DNA from: Intrasporangiaceae bacterium URHB0013
GTDB lineage: Bacteria > Actinomycetota > Actinomycetes > Actinomycetales > Dermatophilaceae
DNA length: 64,000 nt
Reading direction: 5' to 3'
NCBI GenBank assembly: GCA_000620545.1
Contig: JIBA01000013.1
Coordinates: 248,001 to 312,000, forward strand
How positions within the stretch are numbered: position 1 is the first letter of the stretch; the number at the start of each line of letters is the position of its first letter. A program made the translations under genes and the position numbers. Below, one piece after another: positions 3 to 64,000 of this stretch. The notes below the pieces were generated by a model. The model was not told where the DNA came from, did no database searches, and worked only from the letters and a program-made list of their open reading frames with translations.

Positions 3-506
3 CGGGCAGGGGAGCGCGGCGACGATCTGGGGTCGCGGGTCGTGGCCGCCCGGCTCGCCGGCGTCGCGCTGCACCTGGGTCACCTGCTGGAGCGACGCTG
101 GCCGCCCTACGCCAAGTGGCTCGGCACGAGCTTCGCCGGCCTGCCCCGCGCCGCGCTGGCACTCGATCCCCTCGAACGCGCCTTGACGGCATCCTCCTGG
201 CGGCAGCGGGAGGACGGTCTGGCCGGGGCCCTGCGCGCGCTGGCCGTCCTCCAGCGCGAGGTCGGTCTGCCCACGGTCGACGACCCGCTGGAGCCGTTCT
301 GGGACCGGCCCTATCGCGGCGTGCGCGACACCGTCGTCGCCGTTCTCGAGGCCGACATCATCGACCCGGCCGTGCGGGCACTGCCGCGTGGCATCGGGTC
401 CGTGGAGCAGTGGAGCGACAACGTCGGCGTCCTCGTCCACCCGGCCCGACGGCATACGCCCGGCTCCGCAACACACCCGGCAACGGACAGCTCCTGCGAG
501 CTGTGA
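3..506 (+). CDS. DUF4037-type protein, C-terminal part (truncated by window edge)
   Basis: The frame is open to the left edge, so only the last 167 or so residues are visible. The block with LLERRWPPYAKWLGTSF followed by a helical stretch resembles the C-terminal part of DUF4037 proteins, which are nucleotidyltransferase-like and of unknown function. The catalytic half would lie outside the window. The final 20 residues (about HPARRHTPGSATHPATDSS) look unlike a folded end. They are encoded inside a 15-bp inverted repeat arm shared with the intergenic region, so the true C-terminus may have been altered by the terminator-like sequence. A GTG at 42 would give 154 aa but is internal to the family homology and is not the real start. 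The gene converges on kynureninase. Confidence 0.6.
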   Translation, partial: RAGERGDDLGSRVVAARLAGVALHLGHLLERRWPPYAKWLGTSFAGLPRAALALDPLERALTASSWRQREDGLAGALRALAVLQREVGLPTVDDPLEPFWDRPYRGVRDTVVAVLEADIIDPAVRALPRGIGSVEQWSDNVGVLVHPARRHTPGSATHPATDSSCEL

Positions 507-46987: not shown

Positions 46988-47857
46988 ATGGACCTCCCCT
47001 TCCACCTGCTCAACGTCTTCTCCATCGAAGGGGAGCCCTTCTCCGGCAACCCGCTGTGCGTCTTCCCCGAGGCCGGCGACCTCTCCGACGACGAGATGCT
47101 CGCGTGGGCCCGCCAGTTCAACCTCAGCGAGTCGACGTTCGTCACCTCGGTCGGCGACGGGGCCGCCTCGGGTGACGCGGCGGTGCGGATCTTCACCCCC
47201 GGGCACGAGATGCCGTTCGCCGGACACCCCACCCTCGGCGCGGCCGAGGTGGTGGCCGCCCTGAGCGGTGGACTGGATGCCGTGGCGTTGTGCATGCCGG
47301 CAGGGCGCATCGAGGTCGGCCGGGTCGACGGCGGCTGGCGGCTCGCCGCACGCCCCGCGACCCTGCGCGAGGTGACCTCGAGCGGTGCCGACCTGGCTGC
47401 TGCGCTCGGCATCGACCGCATGCTCGTCGTCCGCTCCGACGCCTCGTGGGTCGACGCGGGGGTCGAGCAGCTGCTCGTGCGCCTCGACTCCATCGACGCG
47501 GTCCGGGCGTGCGACCCGGACGCGCACCTCATGGCCGAGCACATGACCTCGCCGGGACGCCCCCCGCACGTCTATGCCTGGGCGTGGACCGGCCCCAAGA
47601 CGATCGAGGCCCGGCTCTTCTACACCCAGGGTCAGGCGGTCCTCGAGGACCCCGCCACCGGCTCCGCGTGTGCCAACCTCGGAGGCTGGCTCGTGGCCCA
47701 GGGTGCCCGCGACGTCTCGGTCGTCGTCAGCCAGGGGACTGCCGTCTGCCGACCGTCGCGCCTGCTCCTCGACGTCGATGTTGCCGGTGCGGTGCACGTC
47801 GGGGGACGCGTCGAGACGGTGGGGCAGGGCACGTGCGCCCTGGGACGGGGCGCCTGA
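46988..47857 (+). CDS. PhzF-family isomerase/epimerase
   Basis: 289 aa from ATG 46988. The N-terminal VFSIEGEPFSGNPLCVFPEAGDLSDDEM, FNLSESTFV with its catalytic glutamate, the RIFTPGHEMPFAGHPTLGAAEVV block and the later EDPATGSACANLGGWL are PhzF signatures. PhzF itself acts in phenazine synthesis, but most members are stand-alone enzymes of unknown substrate; no other phenazine genes are present, so a general metabolic role is more likely. DUF1697 starts 1 nt after its stop. Confidence 0.88.
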   Translation: MDLPFHLLNVFSIEGEPFSGNPLCVFPEAGDLSDDEMLAWARQFNLSESTFVTSVGDGAASGDAAVRIFTPGHEMPFAGHPTLGAAEVVAALSGGLDAVALCMPAGRIEVGRVDGGWRLAARPATLREVTSSGADLAAALGIDRMLVVRSDASWVDAGVEQLLVRLDSIDAVRACDPDAHLMAEHMTSPGRPPHVYAWAWTGPKTIEARLFYTQGQAVLEDPATGSACANLGGWLVAQGARDVSVVVSQGTAVCRPSRLLLDVDVAGAVHVGGRVETVGQGTCALGRGA

Positions 47858-57094: not shown

Positions 57095-59236
57095 TCAGAA
57101 CGCCCTGGGGACGAGCTGGATCCTCACGGCCTCGACACGTTTGGCCTGACCCACGGTCCCGGCAGTCGCCCCGTCCCTGACCCACGGCTGCCAGCCGACG
57201 GCCTCGACGTGAGCGGTGTAGCGGATGGTGTAGTGCTTCGCCAGCTCTCCGGTCAGCCGCATCTGGAGCGCCTCCAGACGCCGGCCCTGGCCCACCGTGC
57301 CGATCAACGTCGGCGGAGTGGCCCAGCTCATCCAGCCGATGCCCTGGACGTTCGCGCGATACTCGACGTGACCCGCGAAGGGCAGCCGCGCCGTGGACAT
57401 CCGAAGCGCCTCCAGCCGCAGCGCCCGACCCGTGGTACCGCTCACGGCACCGTCGGACACGGCAGCCATCCACCCGATGTTCTGGACATGCGCCGCATAC
57501 GTCGTCGACGGCGCCTTCGCCAGCAGCCGCACCTGGATGGCCTCGATGCGCAACGCACGTCCCGTCGTGCCGGCCGTCGCGCCGTTCTTGACCCAGCCCA
57601 TCCAGCCGACGTTCTGCACGTGGACCCGGTAGGACAGGTCGAACCGCGACGCCAGCTGGTCGGTGAGGCGCAGCTGGACGGCCTCGAGCCGCAGCGAACG
57701 TCCGGTCGTGCCGACGAGTGCGCCGGGTGCGGCCCAGCCCGTCCACCCGACGTTCTGCACGTGGCCGTTGCCCTGGACCCCACCCGTGAGCGCCGTGCCG
57801 GAGACTGCGAACTTCAGCGCCTCGAGGCGTCGGAGCTCGCCGATGGTGCCGGCGACCATCCCCGAGGAGACGGGCGGCTGCCACCCGGTGCCGGCGAGGT
57901 AGGCCGGGAACGTCATCGTGGGCATGCTCGCGCCGTAGGCCTGACGGAGGCAGGCCGCGCGGCCCGACATCCAGTTCTTCAAGGACGTGACGCCCTTGTC
58001 GAAGGTGGCCGCCGTGTAGCCGAGGTTGCCGGTCCAGCGCTCGAAGTTGCGGCGGGCGGACGCGTCGATCTGCGTCTTGAGCGTGTTGATGTCCGCCAGC
58101 GTCGTGTTGATCTGGCCCGCGAAGGTCGAGGCGTACATCTGGTTCGTCAGCGCGATGAACTGCTTGTTGCGCATGAGCGTCTCGAACCAGTTGTGCCGCT
58201 TCGCCCGGATGTAGCTGGTGGACTTGACGTACTCGGCCGTCGGGTCGCCGCCCCACTCGCGGGCAGCGAAGTTGCCCATCGCGACGTCCATGTCCCACAC
58301 CGGGCCTGCGTGCAGCTTGTCCGTCGGGCCGTTCTTGTAGAAGTAGACGCTCGAGCGGTCGAAGTCGTAGTTCTCGGTGAGCTCGTGGATGAAGTAGTAC
58401 TTGACGAACGAGTCGACGTCGATGAGCGAGCTGATCTTCTGCCAGTCCGGTGCGGGCGCGTAGAGCTCGGTCTCCAGCGCGTTGACATCGGCCTTGATCT
58501 CCTCGTAGGCGGCCGCCACGGTCGGGTTGAGCACGTCGCTCACCCCCAGCGTGGCGTCCTTGAGCACGAAGAGGGTCTTGTTCCGGTCGGTGAGGAAGAA
58601 GTGCGGCTCTGCCGCGCCGTGGATGTAGTCGAGCTCGAGGAGCACCCCGTGGTCGTCGGTGAGCGCGACGCGGGTCGGACCGACCTCGGTCTTCTCGACG
58701 AGCAGGTAGTTGCCGAGGTACTCGCCGTTGATCTCGAGGTCGACGAACCGCGACTCCGGCGAGTACGCGAGTCCGAAGTCGTTCGCGAGGTCGTAGGAGA
58801 TCTTGTTGCGCAGCAGCGACGGGTCCTGGTGGTTGGCGAGGAGGACCCAGGTGCGGCTCGGCTGCATGCCCAGCACGGGCACGGCGGTGGTGAACTTCAG
58901 CTGGTAGGGCCGCTTGTCCAGCGTCCACGTGTGGTTGCCGCGGCCCTTGATGGTCGCGCTCGCGTCGACGATGTCGTTGGCGGCGTCGGACCCGTCGACG
59001 AGGTTGACCGTGGCCTTGACGGAGTTGTCCTTGTTGGCGTGGAGGTAGTCGAAGCTGTTCTTCGTCGGGTCCGGGTCGGTCAGCGCGACGGACACGAGCG
59101 GCAGGTTCGTCAGCGGCACAGCAGCCGCGGCCACCGCGGGCGCCGGCGCGGAGGCCTGCGCGGCGCCGGGCGAGCCCGAGACCAAAAGAGTGAGCGTTGC
59201 GAGGGCTGCGAGAATGCCCCGTCGTCGAGTCTTCAT
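57095..59236 (-). CDS. Secreted CotH kinase with C-terminal ChW repeats
   Basis: 713 aa from ATG 59236, residue 31 of a longer frame, chosen because it begins a textbook signal peptide (MKTRRR, hydrophobic ILAALATLTLLVSG, GAAQAS cleavage region). Residues 60-430 form a CotH-type atypical kinase: LLRNKISYDLAND, INGEYLGNYLLVEKTEVG and the metal-site VWDMD (D315, D317). Residues 440-713 hold six ChW (clostridial hydrophobic W) repeats of about 45 residues, e.g. HVQNVGWMGWVKNG then AGTTGRALRIEAIQVRL. CotH kinases phosphorylate spore coat proteins in Bacillus; ChW repeats bind cell walls or polysaccharides in clostridia. No spore genes are here, so the role is unknown. Confidence 0.88.
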   Translation of the reverse strand: MKTRRRGILAALATLTLLVSGSPGAAQASAPAPAVAAAAVPLTNLPLVSVALTDPDPTKNSFDYLHANKDNSVKATVNLVDGSDAANDIVDASATIKGRGNHTWTLDKRPYQLKFTTAVPVLGMQPSRTWVLLANHQDPSLLRNKISYDLANDFGLAYSPESRFVDLEINGEYLGNYLLVEKTEVGPTRVALTDDHGVLLELDYIHGAAEPHFFLTDRNKTLFVLKDATLGVSDVLNPTVAAAYEEIKADVNALETELYAPAPDWQKISSLIDVDSFVKYYFIHELTENYDFDRSSVYFYKNGPTDKLHAGPVWDMDVAMGNFAAREWGGDPTAEYVKSTSYIRAKRHNWFETLMRNKQFIALTNQMYASTFAGQINTTLADINTLKTQIDASARRNFERWTGNLGYTAATFDKGVTSLKNWMSGRAACLRQAYGASMPTMTFPAYLAGTGWQPPVSSGMVAGTIGELRRLEALKFAVSGTALTGGVQGNGHVQNVGWTGWAAPGALVGTTGRSLRLEAVQLRLTDQLASRFDLSYRVHVQNVGWMGWVKNGATAGTTGRALRIEAIQVRLLAKAPSTTYAAHVQNIGWMAAVSDGAVSGTTGRALRLEALRMSTARLPFAGHVEYRANVQGIGWMSWATPPTLIGTVGQGRRLEALQMRLTGELAKHYTIRYTAHVEAVGWQPWVRDGATAGTVGQAKRVEAVRIQLVPRAF

Positions 59237-59455
59237 GATGGCCGATTCCTCCCCACGCCCGTTATGGGCGAATTGCCACACATAGACGTATTTGCCTATG
59301 CCACAAGGGAATTGGTCCCCCAACACCCTTGTTGTGAGGTTAGGACGGCATTGTCGCGAGCGTGGGCAGATGGGGAAATACGTCCACGGAGGCGGCGCGC
59401 ATGGGCAGGCGCACCCGCCGCCGGCGACCGCCCTACAGGGAGGGTCGGCCGAGCG

Positions 59456-60628
59456 TCAGCGTGGGGTCAGGGGGAGTGTCAGGTTCAGCCAGCTACCGTG
59501 CGGGTGGCACGTGCCGAGAGCCAGCGGCCCCAGCTCGCGTGCCTTGCGCCACCGCCTCACGCCGAGAACGGTGCTTCCGTCGACCGCGTCATGGGGTACC
59601 TCGATGCCGGGCACACATCCGGGTGGTTCAGCCGTCAGCCAGGTCAGGTCCGGCGCCTGGCGCGAGAGGGCCTCGATGGCGCTCGCGAGGTCGTCGCGCC
59701 GGTCGGGCGCCAGGTAGGTCATGGCCCAGGAGCTCAGCACCACGACGTGGGCGTCGGCCCCTGCCGACCTCCGGGCCCGGTCGACGGCGGTTGCGAGGCC
59801 ATCGACCATGTCGCCCGCAAGCACCGGCGGGGGATCGGGTCGAAGCAGGTCTCGGGCGCTGCGAAACCTCTCGACGCGGCCGGGCACCTCGGGCCACAGG
59901 CAGGCCTCCAGCCAGCGCACGGCCTCGTCGTCGCGGAGGTCCACCGGCGCCGCGTCGACTCCCACCCGGCCATGAACGGGTGGCAGGCCCGTGCGTGCGG
60001 CGATCCGGGCACCGACGCCCGTCCGGTCGTCGCCCGAGCAGCGGACCGGAGATGCGGGGTCACCGACCTGCACCGGGCCGTCAGGGGACCGGAGCTCGAC
60101 GGAGTACCGGTCGAGGGCGAGCAGCAGGCCCGCACTCGCACCGAGCTCGACCAGCGCCAACGGGGTGTCCGGACGGTCTGCGGTCGCGGCGGCCAGGCCG
60201 ACGGTGACGTACACCGCGCGGTTGACCTCGTTCGTCTGCGTGGCACGCGTCGCGATCCGATCGCTGATCTCGTCCGCATGGTCGAGGACCGTCCGCCGCA
60301 CGTCCGGCCATGGATCTCCATGGGCCAGCGCCCCGGCACCGGCCACGCTCGGATACCACTGTGCCGCAGGAACGTCCGGCCGTCGGAGCACGAGGTCATG
60401 CAGGGCCGCGAGCCACAGGACCGGACGTGCCTGACCCGGCCGAGCGGACAGCAGCAGTGACGCCGTCTCGTCGTCCTCGGCGACATGGCGGCTGATCGTG
60501 GAGTAGAGGGGCAAGGCCGCGTACTCCTGGGCGAACTCGGCGAAGCGCCGCTGGATCCGCGCCAGCCGGACCTGCGCCGGCTCGCTTGGCGGAACGGCCG
60601 ATTCAGGCACCGGTGACGCCGTCGACAT
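59456..60628 (-). CDS. DUF2332 protein
   Basis: 390 aa from ATG 60628 (GTG 60634 possible). Typical DUF2332 blocks: AEFAQEYAALPLYSTISRHVAEDD, LALVELGASAGLLLALDRYS (a GxSxG-like stretch), VLSSWAMTYLAPDRRDDL and a C-terminal TCHPHGSWLNLTLP. These proteins have a methyltransferase-like fold by their VELGASAG motif, but no activity has been shown. It lies 40 nt after the rlmC stop on the same strand, so it may be co-transcribed with rlmC. Its product is likely cytosolic. Confidence 0.85.
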   Translation of the reverse strand: MSTASPVPESAVPPSEPAQVRLARIQRRFAEFAQEYAALPLYSTISRHVAEDDETASLLLSARPGQARPVLWLAALHDLVLRRPDVPAAQWYPSVAGAGALAHGDPWPDVRRTVLDHADEISDRIATRATQTNEVNRAVYVTVGLAAATADRPDTPLALVELGASAGLLLALDRYSVELRSPDGPVQVGDPASPVRCSGDDRTGVGARIAARTGLPPVHGRVGVDAAPVDLRDDEAVRWLEACLWPEVPGRVERFRSARDLLRPDPPPVLAGDMVDGLATAVDRARRSAGADAHVVVLSSWAMTYLAPDRRDDLASAIEALSRQAPDLTWLTAEPPGCVPGIEVPHDAVDGSTVLGVRRWRKARELGPLALGTCHPHGSWLNLTLPLTPR

Positions 60629-60668
60629 GCTCACGCACGCGCGGTCCAGGACGTCCGCCGATGGGAGG

Positions 60669-61871
60669 TCATGGCCGGCGCCCTACGCCAACGGAATCGA
60701 CTGGTGCAGAAGCCGTCCCACGTTCCATGAGGATGATGACCTCGTGGTGCGACGTCTGGGGGAACATGTCGAAGAGGCGCGCCTCGCGGACGGCGAACGA
60801 GGGCAGCAGAGCGAGATCGCGGGCGAGGCTGTCGACGTTGCAGCTCGAGTAGGTCACGTGCGTGGCCCCCGAGGTCTCGAGCCAGGCCGTAAGGGCGGGC
60901 CCGATGCCGCGGCGGGGCGGGTTGACGACGACCATCGACGGCGCGGCTCCCAGCAGCTCCCGTTCGAGGGTCTCCACGTCGGTGGCGTCGCCTGCGCGGA
61001 ACTCCAGCAGCCCCATGTCGGGGTGGTCGGCACGCAGCCGCGACGCGCTGGTCTCCGCACTGCGGACTGCCTCGACGGAGACCTCGACACCCAGGACGCG
61101 GCGAGCGCCGGCCTTGGCGCAGTGGAGCGCGAATCCGCCCACCCCGCAGTAGAGGTCGAGCACCGCAGCCGGACCGACCGCCTCCGTCCAGTCCTGCGCC
61201 TGGCGGTAGAGCGCAGACGCGACAGCAGTGTTCGTCTGGAAGAAGCTGTTGGGGCGGAGGAAGAGGGTGATGTCGTCCAACGGCATCGCCAGCTCGCCAC
61301 TGCGAGTCAGGACGATCTCGGTGTCGCCCTCGAGGATGGCCTTGTGCTCCGGCTGGAGGTTGACCGTCACGACCGACACCTCGGGCAGGCGCGCCTGCAG
61401 CAGGGCGAGACGCGACTCGAGCAGGGCCAGGTGCCGCCGCGAGCGCAGGACGAGGCGGAGCATGACCTTGCCGGTGGGGGAGAGGGTCAGGATCAGGTGC
61501 TTGAGCTCACCACGACGCCCGGCGACGTCATAGGGCTCGAGGCCGACCTCGTCGACGACGTCGGCGAGGCGAGGTATGAGTTGCTGCAGCGTCGGCTCGT
61601 AGAGGCCGCAGCCGCGCAGGTCGACTCCGGTGCCGTCGCCGTCGAGGATCCCGACGGTCACCGCGCCGACGACGCCGCCGACGACGAGCTTGGCCTTGTT
61701 GCGGAAGGCCGACTCGGCGCTGGGAAAGGCCTCGAGCCAGGTGACGTCCGGGGCGACGGTCGCCAGGGCGTGTCGGCAGCGTGCCTCCTTGTCCGCGAGC
61801 TGCACGGCATACGGAACACCCATGAGGGCACACGAGCGGCAGCGGCCGGCGTCGAAGTAGTCACACTGCAT
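60669..61871 (-). CDS. rlmC: 23S rRNA (uracil-C5)-methyltransferase RlmC/RumB-like
   Basis: 400 aa from ATG 61871. The iron-sulphur cysteines C3-x7-C11-x2-C14 (MQCDYFDAGRCRSCALM) and a later GCGLYEP, the SAM-binding VLDLYCGVGGFALHCA, and the catalytic cysteine YSSCNVDSLARDL are in place. RlmC methylates U747 in 23S rRNA using a covalent Cys intermediate. The frame upstream to 62210 crosses the regulatory region and has no homology, so it is rejected. It is divergent from helR, with a hairpin and a palindrome between. Confidence 0.9.
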   Translation of the reverse strand: MQCDYFDAGRCRSCALMGVPYAVQLADKEARCRHALATVAPDVTWLEAFPSAESAFRNKAKLVVGGVVGAVTVGILDGDGTGVDLRGCGLYEPTLQQLIPRLADVVDEVGLEPYDVAGRRGELKHLILTLSPTGKVMLRLVLRSRRHLALLESRLALLQARLPEVSVVTVNLQPEHKAILEGDTEIVLTRSGELAMPLDDITLFLRPNSFFQTNTAVASALYRQAQDWTEAVGPAAVLDLYCGVGGFALHCAKAGARRVLGVEVSVEAVRSAETSASRLRADHPDMGLLEFRAGDATDVETLERELLGAAPSMVVVNPPRRGIGPALTAWLETSGATHVTYSSCNVDSLARDLALLPSFAVREARLFDMFPQTSHHEVIILMERGTASAPVDSVGVGRRP

Positions 61872-61955
61872 CACGGGCAAGGCTACGGCGCTGGCGAGGC
61901 GTCGGGGACCGCGGGCCGAGGCCGCGAGGAGGGAGGGTCGACCACGACAAAGTGA

Positions 61956-61970
61956 CATAATGTCGATTAT
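61956..61970. promoter_or_regulatory. Palindromic AT-rich element (inverse copy of 57021-57035)
   Basis: CATAATGTCGATTAT, reverse complement of the element at 57021-57035. It lies 85 nt upstream of rlmC. It contains -10-like hexamers (CATAAT, GATAAT) on both strands. Confidence 0.5.
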
Positions 61971-62032
61971 CGGCGTTATGCGGTAACCGCTGGTGCGCGA
62001 GACGGCTACGGCCCTGGGCGGTGGGCACATGC

Positions 62033-62061
62033 AAAAGGAAGGAAGCACCGGGCTTCCTTCC
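62033..62061 (-). terminator. Hairpin with U-tract on the minus strand
   Basis: GGAAGGAAGC (62037-62046) pairs with 62052-62061, 5-nt loop. On the minus strand it is followed by TTTT (62036-62033). It could stop minus-strand transcription from the helR side before rlmC, or be a structured leader. A -10-like TATACG (62075-62070) and -35-like TTGCCG (62098-62093) lie upstream on the minus strand. Confidence 0.5.
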
Positions 62062-62084
62062 ACTCCCAACGTATAGCGCACCCC

Positions 62085-62104
62085 GGGGCTTGCGGCAAGA
62101 CCCC
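62085..62104 (+). promoter_or_regulatory. Rifamycin-associated element (RAE) upstream of helR
   Basis: GGGGCTTGCGGCAAGACCCC differs by one base from the published RAE consensus that marks rifamycin-inducible genes in actinobacteria. It lies 58 nt before the helR GTG, inside a longer imperfect palindrome (62079-62111). TTGCGG within it could be a -35, with CAGAAT (62115-62120) as a weak -10. Confidence 0.85.
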
Positions 62105-62161
62105 GGGGGTGACACAGAATTCGCTGGCCGACACCAGAACCCAGCGGACGGAGCCCACCGC

Positions 62162-64000
62162 GTGAACCCTCTGGCCACCAGCGCCTTCGACCTTCGCAAC
62201 CACCTCGCACCCAAGGCCGATCCGGCCCTCATCGCCCAGGACGACACGCACTTCGCGGCCGTGGCCGAGACCCTCGAGGCGACGATCACCGAGCTTTCCG
62301 ACCGCCTCGACGCTGCGCTGCGCGCACCGGCAGGCAGCGGCCAGGCGGCGCTGGACCGCGACCAGGAGGTCCATCGCTTGACCGCTCGACTGCGTGCCCT
62401 GCGGCGCTACGGACTCGACCTGTGTCTCGGCCGCATCGTGCCCGAGAACGACTCTCGACCCATCTACGTCGGACGCCTGGGGCTCACCGACAGCGCGGGA
62501 CGGCGGCTCCTTCTCGACTGGCGCTCCCCTGCGGCCGAGCCCTTCTTCGGCGCCACCCACGGCAACCCCATGGGCCTCGCGAGCCGCCGACGCTACCGCT
62601 GGACCCGTGGCCGGGTCACCGACTACTGGGACGAGGTGTTCACGCCGGACGCACTCGAGGGACGCGTCGCCCTGGACGACGAGTCCGCCTTCATCGCCTC
62701 CCTCGGCGCCAGCCGCTCGCCGCGGATGCGCGACGTGCTCAGCACCATCCAGGCCGACCAGGACGCCATCATCCGGGCAGGATCCCGGGGCGCCCTCGTC
62801 GTGGACGGAGGGCCCGGCACGGGCAAGACGGTCGTGGCGCTGCACCGGACGGCATACCTGCTCTACTCCGACCCGCGCCTCGGCCACCGTCGCGGCGGCG
62901 TGCTCTTCGTCGGCCCGCACGAGCCCTACCTCTCCTACGTCTCCGACGTCCTGCCCAGCCTGGGCGAGGAAGGCGTGCAGACCTGCACGCTGCGCGACCT
63001 CGTCGCCGAAGGCGCCACCGCGCGACCCGAGGACGACCCGGAGGTGGCTCGGCTCAAGGCCTCGATGGACCTCGTGCGCGCCATCGAGCCGGCCGTGGCG
63101 CTGTACGAAGAACCCCCGACCGCAGGCATGGAGGTCGTGACCCCCTGGGCGGACGTGTGGCTCTCCCCCGCCGACTGGGCCGAGGCCTTCACCGCCGGCG
63201 TCAGCACGCCTCACAACGAGGCTCGCGACGACGTCTGGGAGGCCCTGGTCACCATCCTCGTCGAGCGTCACGACCTGGAGGTGCGGATCGACGACGACGG
63301 CGAGGACGTGGAGCTCGAGGCCACCCCAGCGGCGGTCCGGCGCTCACTCGAGCAGAACCGCGAGCTGCGCACGGCGTTCGACCGGACGTGGCCGCTCCTC
63401 GACGCCGCGGACCTCGTCGGCGACCTCTGGACGGTACCGGCCTACCTGCGCCGGTGCGCACCGGCACTGGGCATCGATGCGGTGCGCCGCCTCCAGCGGC
63501 CGGAGCCGGACGCGTGGACGGTGTCGGACCTCCCACTGCTCGACGCGGCGCGGCTGCGTCTGGGTGACCCGGAGGCCGCACGACGCCGTCGCCGGCGCGA
63601 CAGGGTGCTCGCCGTGGAGCGTGAGCAGCGGTCCGCGGTGGTCGAGCACCTCATCGCGTCCGACGACTCGGACATGCACGTCATGTCGATGCTCCGTGGC
63701 GCGGACCTCCAGGACGCCCTCGACGACGACGCCGCAGGACCGAGCGTCGATCCCGACCTGCTGGCCGGACCGTTCGCCCACGTGGTCGTGGACGAGGCCC
63801 AGGAACTGACCGACGCGGAGTGGCAGATGCTGCTGAACCGGTGCCCGTCGCGGAGCCTCACCATCGTCGGCGACCGGGCTCAGGCCCGCCACGGCTTCCC
63901 GGAGTCGTGGGAGACACGGCTGGAGCGCATCGGTCTGCACCGGGCCGCCGTGGCCTCCCTCAGCATCAACTACCGGACCCCGGCGGAGGTCATGGCCGAG
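62162..64000 (+). CDS. helR: RNA polymerase recycling motor ATPase HelR (3' end outside window)
   Basis: 613 codons are visible; it runs off the right edge. It is a HelD/HelR superfamily-1 ATPase. Seen: an N-terminal coiled-coil-like region, the TDSAGRRLLLDWRSPAAEPF block, Walker A DGGPGTGKTVVALHRTAYLL (about residue 215), a VDEAQELTDAEWQML Walker B (about 545), and TIVGDRAQARHG. These proteins displace RNA polymerase from DNA; HelR also removes rifamycin from the enzyme. The RAE upstream and the sequence type favour HelR over plain HelD. Start GTG 62162 follows GGACGGAG. Confidence 0.9.
   Translation, partial: MNPLATSAFDLRNHLAPKADPALIAQDDTHFAAVAETLEATITELSDRLDAALRAPAGSGQAALDRDQEVHRLTARLRALRRYGLDLCLGRIVPENDSRPIYVGRLGLTDSAGRRLLLDWRSPAAEPFFGATHGNPMGLASRRRYRWTRGRVTDYWDEVFTPDALEGRVALDDESAFIASLGASRSPRMRDVLSTIQADQDAIIRAGSRGALVVDGGPGTGKTVVALHRTAYLLYSDPRLGHRRGGVLFVGPHEPYLSYVSDVLPSLGEEGVQTCTLRDLVAEGATARPEDDPEVARLKASMDLVRAIEPAVALYEEPPTAGMEVVTPWADVWLSPADWAEAFTAGVSTPHNEARDDVWEALVTILVERHDLEVRIDDDGEDVELEATPAAVRRSLEQNRELRTAFDRTWPLLDAADLVGDLWTVPAYLRRCAPALGIDAVRRLQRPEPDAWTVSDLPLLDAARLRLGDPEAARRRRRRDRVLAVEREQRSAVVEHLIASDDSDMHVMSMLRGADLQDALDDDAAGPSVDPDLLAGPFAHVVVDEAQELTDAEWQMLLNRCPSRSLTIVGDRAQARHGFPESWETRLERIGLHRAAVASLSINYRTPAEVMAE

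Follow-up and report, generated by a model that had tools for sequence, protein, structure and literature searches.

A conserved, mirror-symmetric pair of predicted promoters shares its −35 core at the rifamycin-associated element upstream of helR in an Intrasporangiaceae bacterium

The rifamycin-associated element (RAE) is a palindrome described by Spanogiannopoulos (2014), Surette (2022) and Hurst-Hess (2022), as recounted in passages of PMC10719064, PMC12802891 and PMC8655204, which name helR, rox, arr and a glycosyltransferase gene in connection with it. Its mode of action in actinobacteria is described as still to be worked out, with the binding of an unknown factor as a possibility (passages of PMC12802891); a 2026 review likewise states, in the part available, that the induction mechanism of two M. 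abscessus rifamycin genes is yet to be known (PMC13001253). One RAE lies upstream of a helR gene in Intrasporangiaceae bacterium URHB0013, within the 64,000-nt stretch analysed here (contig JIBA01000013.1, positions 248,001 to 312,000; hereafter the window). Comparison across RAE sites strongly supports reading the palindrome as a pair of overlapping −35 boxes that belong to two predicted promoters set back to back in base-exact symmetry, one facing the defence gene and the other facing outward.

A scan of the window with the RAE pattern GGGGCTTGCGGCAAGNCCCC returned a single match without mismatches, GGGGCTTGCGGCAAGACCCC at 62085-62104, read on the plus strand; as a palindrome the element itself has no strand, and its symmetry centre is 62094. 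With up to three mismatches allowed there were three matches, namely this element, its opposite-strand reading and one at 47337, the chance mean over 100 shuffles being 0.03. In the 4.57-Mb genome the element was the sole RAE at zero mismatches; five others appeared at three mismatches, a level at which the reversed control pattern gave three matches. The site also conforms to the 19-bp palindrome GGGNCTTGCNGCAAGNCCC, whose letters we take to be those of the RAE consensus. A preliminary description of this locus, made from the letters alone, had placed an RAE one base off the known element in front of helR; the site is real, and the single difference holds against that presumed consensus at a variable position, occupied by A, G, C or T among relatives. 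Across the phylum, 16 of 296 genomes contained the pattern GGGGCTTGCGGCAAGNCCCC at zero mismatches. With up to two mismatches it was found in 61 of the 296, compared to 45 for the reversed control, which makes that level noisy. The RAE ends 57 bp before the start codon of helR (62162-64000, plus strand, running past the window edge), so that, as in the described class, it stands just upstream of a rifamycin-defence gene. In the genome helR is intact (L208:263-2443), and its 727-amino-acid product reaches 1249.6 bits against the NCBIfam model motor_HelR, for which the cut-off is 750, in agreement with the HelR-type ATPase named in the preliminary description.

Sites for comparison were collected by scanning a side-neutral palindromic pattern against one genome per species (at least 119 stretches) and against viral contigs (three stretches). 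Together with loci from the scans of the organism's own genome and of the phylum, this gave 135 sites with G or C at the centre and 134, including the window's, after removal of a duplicate (L004, the same place as L001); ten palindromes with an A or T centre (in L036-L157) were left out of the main set. Open reading frames (ORFs) near the sites were clustered, and clusters of 21, 9, 4 and 4 members were taken as shadow frames and left unscanned. With hidden Markov model (HMM) libraries, representatives of five clusters were recognised as HelD/HelR, rifampin monooxygenase (rox), an Rgt-related glycosyltransferase (507.6 bits on Rgt, under the cut-off of 800), Arr and Rph, the last of which adds rph to the genes named in the literature. 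The HMM scans covered one or two representatives per gene family, and the remaining assigned genes were checked by BLAST only. One defence-family gene, on one side only, was present at 116 of the 134 sites, and at all 116 the best BLAST match of the assigned gene was its own family's reference. Removal of two sites for redundancy or gaps left 114, the window's site included (helR 48, rox 38, arr 11, rph 9, glycosyltransferase 8). Orienting the sites by the RAE centre base was rejected, since in the gene sense 94 of the 116 sites have G there and 22 have C.

On the outward strand, TANNNT occupied positions 21-26 from the RAE centre in 111 of the 114 sites, against 1.2 expected, and at 17 other offsets tested it occurred once in total (spacer 18 in L102, a 1-bp shift). 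On the gene strand, the same positions carried NANNNT in 111 sites and TANNNT in none. The arms differ at −12, where the gene arm has C in 100 sites and otherwise G (11 sites), T (2) or A (1), within a −10 box that is mostly CAnAAT, compared to T in 111 outward arms. Each −10 box lies 19 bp from a TTG that makes up one half of the RAE core TTGNNNCAA. Over 53 bp the boxes of the two arms mirror each other in position base for base, with 41 bp between the two −10 boxes and predicted starts about 66 bp apart; sequence conservation stops near −53. Since the outward −10 box is kept at 111 of 114 sites lying before unrelated genes, chance is untenable. By its bases, the outward arm would be a consensus-like promoter and the gene arm one with a weak −10 box.

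The gene arm pointed toward the defence gene at 112 of the 116 assigned sites and away from it at none, the module of two arms being absent from the other four. Of the 18 sites to which no single gene could be assigned, 14 carried the module; the four without it (L064, L092, L097 and L157) are archaeal, Nitrospirae, Paraburkholderia and viral contigs, and L097 has NANNNT on one side only. Those 14 comprise seven with a choice of two candidate genes, six whose sequence stops within 265 bp on the side of the gene, and L055, described below. No candidate gene was present at 11 of the unassigned sites, seven of which show the module. The palindromes with an A or T centre were divided between seven without the module and three with it. 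A pattern made of the promoter bases and TTGNNNCAA, with the G/C arms of the palindrome omitted, matched 193 of 393 class genomes at up to three mismatches, compared to 12 for the reversed pattern; some weak matches in small AT-rich genomes are probably noise. At 14 loci from more distant genomes (L158-L171) both arms were present in 11, in some of them with an altered centre triplet (TTGCGTCAA in L160-L162, TTGAAGCAA in L171); L170 lies outside the core pattern used for this check. A complete promoter pair was also observed before an rph-family gene at L106:1889-1907, in a bin labelled Chloroflexi, through either horizontal transfer or mis-binning.

In the window, the predicted gene-facing arm reads TTGCGG-19-CAGAAT on the plus strand, with the −35 box at 62090-62095, the −10 box, bearing C at −12, at 62115-62120, and an approximate start at 62127 (±4 bp) placed from the −10 position. 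The predicted outward arm reads TTGCCG-19-TACGTT on the minus strand (62098-62068), with the −35 box at 62093-62098 and the −10 box at 62068-62073. Both −35 boxes are in register with the 114-site comparison and overlap by 3 bp. The outward start, predicted at 62061 on the minus strand (GG at 62061-62060), lies 33 bp from the RAE centre and follows from the usual distance between a −10 box and its start; GG stands seven bases past the outward −10 in 105 of the 114 sites. The preliminary description had already used the RAE as the −35 region of a minus-strand promoter, which the comparison bears out. Its −10 box, TATACG at a spacing of 17, does not survive: the letters TTGCCG-17-TATACG are present, but the conserved hexamer lies two bases further on, at the spacer of 19 that carries TANNNT in 111 of 114 sites. 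The gene-facing arm and the exact symmetry, which are the central feature of the element, had been missed. As a separate observation, CGCTATANGTT in the outward arm (62079-62067, minus strand) differs by one inserted base from CGCTATNGTT, which a passage of PMC6181997 gives as a motif of promoter II of mycobacterial rpoBC, a strong promoter.

A hairpin, GGAAGGAAGCCCGGTGCTTCCTTCC, occupies 62037-62061 on the minus strand and is predicted to open with the outward RNA's first nucleotide; it is followed by TTTT at 62033-62036, so that the predicted RNA is about 30 nt long. The hairpin has a minimum free energy of −20.3 kcal/mol (z −3.5) and, with its T-tract, was the one terminator-like site found by the scan (0.2 expected). 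It combines the GC-rich stem and T-run of an intrinsic terminator, the run being only four T. The stem-loop with four U residues in the preliminary description is thereby confirmed, and the short hairpin-terminated minus-strand RNA proposed there is upheld as a prediction by the conserved outward −10. At many sites GG forms the first base pair of the hairpin. An exact 6-bp stem from the predicted start was found in 41 of 114 sites, whereas swapping arms between sites would give between 4.4 (different arms only) and 10.9; 28 of the 41 have at least four T within the next eight bases. There were 12 distinct arms. With 8-bp arms and G-U pairs allowed, stems were present in 43 of 114 sites versus 15.3 by arm swap; with G-U pairs plus one mismatch the test did not discriminate (63 versus 50.6). 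A looser scan for a hairpin with at least four T gave 41 of 114 sites versus 6.25 in shuffles, and none on the sense side; for a hairpin alone the values were 82 versus 51.5, with 22 on the sense side. Rfam yielded no relevant match in the window stretch or in four fetched loci. The strict tests support a terminator at about a third of the sites, not at all of them, so the picture is of a near-universal putative outward promoter with a frequent terminator, whose RNA would be little more than the hairpin and a short U tail.

These features suggest a mechanism in which the RAE would be the common −35 core of two sigma-A-type promoters set back to back. The outward arm, with T at −12, A at −11, T at −7, a 19-bp spacer and a G start, would draw most polymerases and yield an RNA that leads nowhere, about 30 nt long and in many cases terminated by a hairpin of its own, while the gene arm, with an equal spacer, would be restrained by an almost invariably crippled −10 box. 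RNA polymerase itself may then be the rifamycin sensor. The outward arm would serve as a trap in which drug-bound polymerase, limited to 2-3 nt, is arrested, and gene-arm output would rise either through this stalled complex or because outward firing ceases. In the favoured version, the least certain step, the arrested outward polymerase would help a drug-free polymerase to engage the gene arm, either by distorting the DNA or by touching it at the −35 that both arms use. We consider this combination of a promoter pair with a shared −35, polymerase as sensor and an arrested outward complex that raises the gene arm the best explanation overall, with a probability of roughly 45%; the promoter pair is read from sequence, and from it we infer the sensing. 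For the sensing step alone, help from the arrested outward complex is favoured at about even odds against a protein factor and the rest. The broadest form of the idea, in which no transcription factor is needed and the poisoned target induces its own rescue genes across actinobacteria through polymerase arrested at the outward arm, is rather doubtful.

There are precedents for polymerase as sensor. Induction of M. smegmatis rpoBC needed inhibition of a sensitive polymerase (passage of PMC6181997), and in 2026 work on B. subtilis a strong antisense promoter is described as sensing rifampicin because drug-bound polymerase arrests there (passages of PMC12802891). The helD and pps antisense promoters of B. 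subtilis have 19-bp spacers, and that of helD has a GTP start and a nearby terminator (same source). Simple models constrained how arrest could act. When drug-free and drug-bound polymerases compete passively for a single site, a larger bound fraction always means less gene-arm output (the derivative is below zero at all rates), and passive occlusion was rejected as the inducing mechanism by this algebra and by 200,000 parameter draws. Therefore, if the polymerase is the sensor, either the arrested complex would help the gene arm or outward firing would harm it beyond occupancy, and the version with a helping arrested polymerase is favoured. A model in which the arrested outward polymerase recruits its neighbour gave some induction in 71% of draws and more than twofold in 48%; it assumes a 100-fold effect, and these models show what is possible rather than what occurs.

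Several points weigh against this explanation. The mutual-exclusion model gave induction in 0 of the 200,000 draws, so that arrest should lower the gene arm, and co-binding would be possible only if two polymerases could sit together on overlapping −35 boxes; steric exclusion is stated for bidirectional promoters with a common −10 (passage of PMC12825309). The terminator is not universal, the exact 6-bp stem being limited to 41 of 114 sites and absent from all 11 arr loci. The RAE-like palindromes L158 and L159, with an altered centre, have no module. The G/C arms of the RAE persist where the search pattern did not select for them: in 29 of 30 loci from the promoter-only pattern, the window's own being left out, the left GGG was present in 27 and the right CCC in 24. 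Overlapping −35 boxes alone do not explain these kept arms, which fit a DNA-binding protein. In a passage of PMC10719064, M. smegmatis helD is also reported to have a second, upstream sense promoter, which starts about 20 bp ahead of the element.

The G/C arms thus lead to the alternative that a rifamycin-responsive DNA-binding protein, a drug-released repressor or an activator, reads the palindrome and controls both arms, the outward RNA being a co-regulated output or a means of autoregulation. The strict symmetry and fixed spacing would suit one symmetric protein, and promoters under protein control often have weak −10 boxes and 19-bp spacers. A 2022 review and a 2026 paper both raise an unknown factor in the passages available. 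In M. abscessus, induction was lost on deleting half of the RAE (passage of PMC10719064), a result that suits a protein and fits all the other models as well. However, such a protein would leave the consensus outward −10 at 111 of 114 sites unexplained, and the module in the Chloroflexi-labelled bin would require the factor to have moved too, mis-binning being possible. No such protein is named in the literature passages at hand, and no systematic search for an RAE-linked regulator gene was made. We regard control by a protein as quite possible, though at less than an even chance.

Two further explanations concern the outward arm itself. It might be a bystander or insulator, its short terminated RNA guarding the neighbouring gene, here rlmC, or merely reflecting symmetry, with no drug sensing. 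A passage of PMC12825309 calls divergent transcription from symmetric promoters ubiquitous among prokaryotes, and the window hairpin does stand between the RAE and rlmC. Yet the outward −10 is nearer to consensus than that of the gene arm and equally well kept, and drift would not place T at −12 in 111 of 114 outward arms versus 2 of 114 gene arms. An RlmC-like gene adjoins only one of 132 compared loci, the window's own; the hairpin is therefore not an rlmC feature, and shielding of rlmC, suggested in the preliminary description, would operate here without being a general purpose. We consider a bystander or insulator role unlikely. Less likely still is a collision alarm of the B. subtilis type, in which an upstream sense promoter meets the outward promoter head-on and rifampicin, by stopping outward firing, lets sense polymerases pass. 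This arrangement is experimentally supported for B. subtilis helD and pps (passages of PMC12802891), the upstream M. smegmatis start reported in PMC10719064 would be in keeping with it, and a convergent model gave some induction in 32% of draws and more than twofold in 8%. A conserved upstream sense promoter was not found by pattern between −125 and −35 in the 114 sites: TTG-15..19-TANNNT on the sense strand occurred in none (0.63 in shuffles), and sense TANNNT was below chance (10 versus 17.4). Conservation ends near −53, and a start 20 bp before the RAE would overlap the outward start, whereas in B. subtilis the two starts face each other 39 bp apart. We find this very improbable for the RAE.

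The polymerase-sensor explanation shares much with described systems while differing in geometry. Like the B. subtilis helD/pps alarm, the RAE module has two opposed arms, a 19-bp antisense spacer (111 of 114 sites), a predicted G start, a short terminated antisense RNA (predicted, with the hairpin and four T in the window) and a HelD-family gene (passages of PMC12802891). Its antisense arm is, by its bases, the nearer to consensus, which would correspond to the strong antisense and weak sense promoters of B. subtilis. In contrast, the B. subtilis promoters converge, with starts 39 bp apart, whereas at the RAE the gene arm is downstream and divergent. As the RAE arms diverge from a common −35, an outward polymerase cannot collide with a gene-arm polymerase. 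Bidirectional promoters of E. coli (passages of PMC12825309) similarly rely on DNA symmetry that permits polymerase binding in two orientations and divergent RNAs; those tested there share one −10 box, whereas the RAE pair shares the −35, with predicted starts about 66 bp apart. At the mycobacterial rpoBC tandem promoters, low-dose rifampicin raises output by unequal action on two promoters, and polymerase is both target and sensor; these promoters are tandem rather than divergent, sequence between them is required in M. smegmatis, and the RAE is not mentioned in the passages of PMC6181997 available.

As for the RAE itself, its overlap with the −35 of a mycobacterial sense promoter has already been noted, whereas the outward arm, the base-exact mirror symmetry, the rule of C at −12 and the outward hairpin do not occur in the passages available from the RAE literature. 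The full-text literature searched, which did not include the original RAE papers, preprints or supplements, yielded no account of an outward-facing promoter at the element, so that a prior description is possible. The promoter geometry, with a shared −35, mirror-image arms and starts about 66 bp apart, was likewise not found described there.

Several observations accompany the module at other sites. In Actinoplanes aureus (L055:116-1794), a complete module has its gene arm facing, 94 bp on, a 522-amino-acid MFS efflux transporter, which scores 162.9 bits on Pfam MFS_1 and 212.3 bits on DHA2/EmrB (cut-off 230.2) and lies outside the five known families; by sequence it is a candidate rifamycin efflux gene. 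The gene-side 5′ untranslated region, at +27 to +90 from the RAE centre, contains a second conserved motif, GGCCGAAGCC followed by ACCTGCGGAAA, and TGCGGAAA was present in this region in 28 of 114 sites versus 0.28 in shuffles. At L149:1486-2024 two modules lie about 520 bp apart, their gene arms pointing apart, to glycosyltransferase-like and HelR-like genes. At L081:2661-2679 the gene arm faces a glycosyltransferase gene, and a HelD-like gene is on the outward side.

In the window, the gene downstream of the outward arm is that of the RlmC-like 23S rRNA methyltransferase (60669-61871, minus strand), whose top NCBIfam scores, 527.9 and 508.3 bits, are below the curated cut-offs of 553 and 558. 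Between the hairpin and this gene, at 61953-61989, are nested AT-rich dyads, TGACATAATGTC and GTTATGCGGTAAC, perhaps an rlmC promoter or operator. Further along the minus strand are a DUF2332 protein gene (59456-60634, Pfam PF10094) and a gene encoding a CotH kinase domain followed by six ChW repeats (57095-59326, Pfam).

The conserved second arm offers a concrete alternative to an unknown factor, namely that the polymerase is its own sensor. If true, this would explain how the RAE works before unrelated genes, and it would unify the actinobacterial and Bacillus responses to rifampicin.

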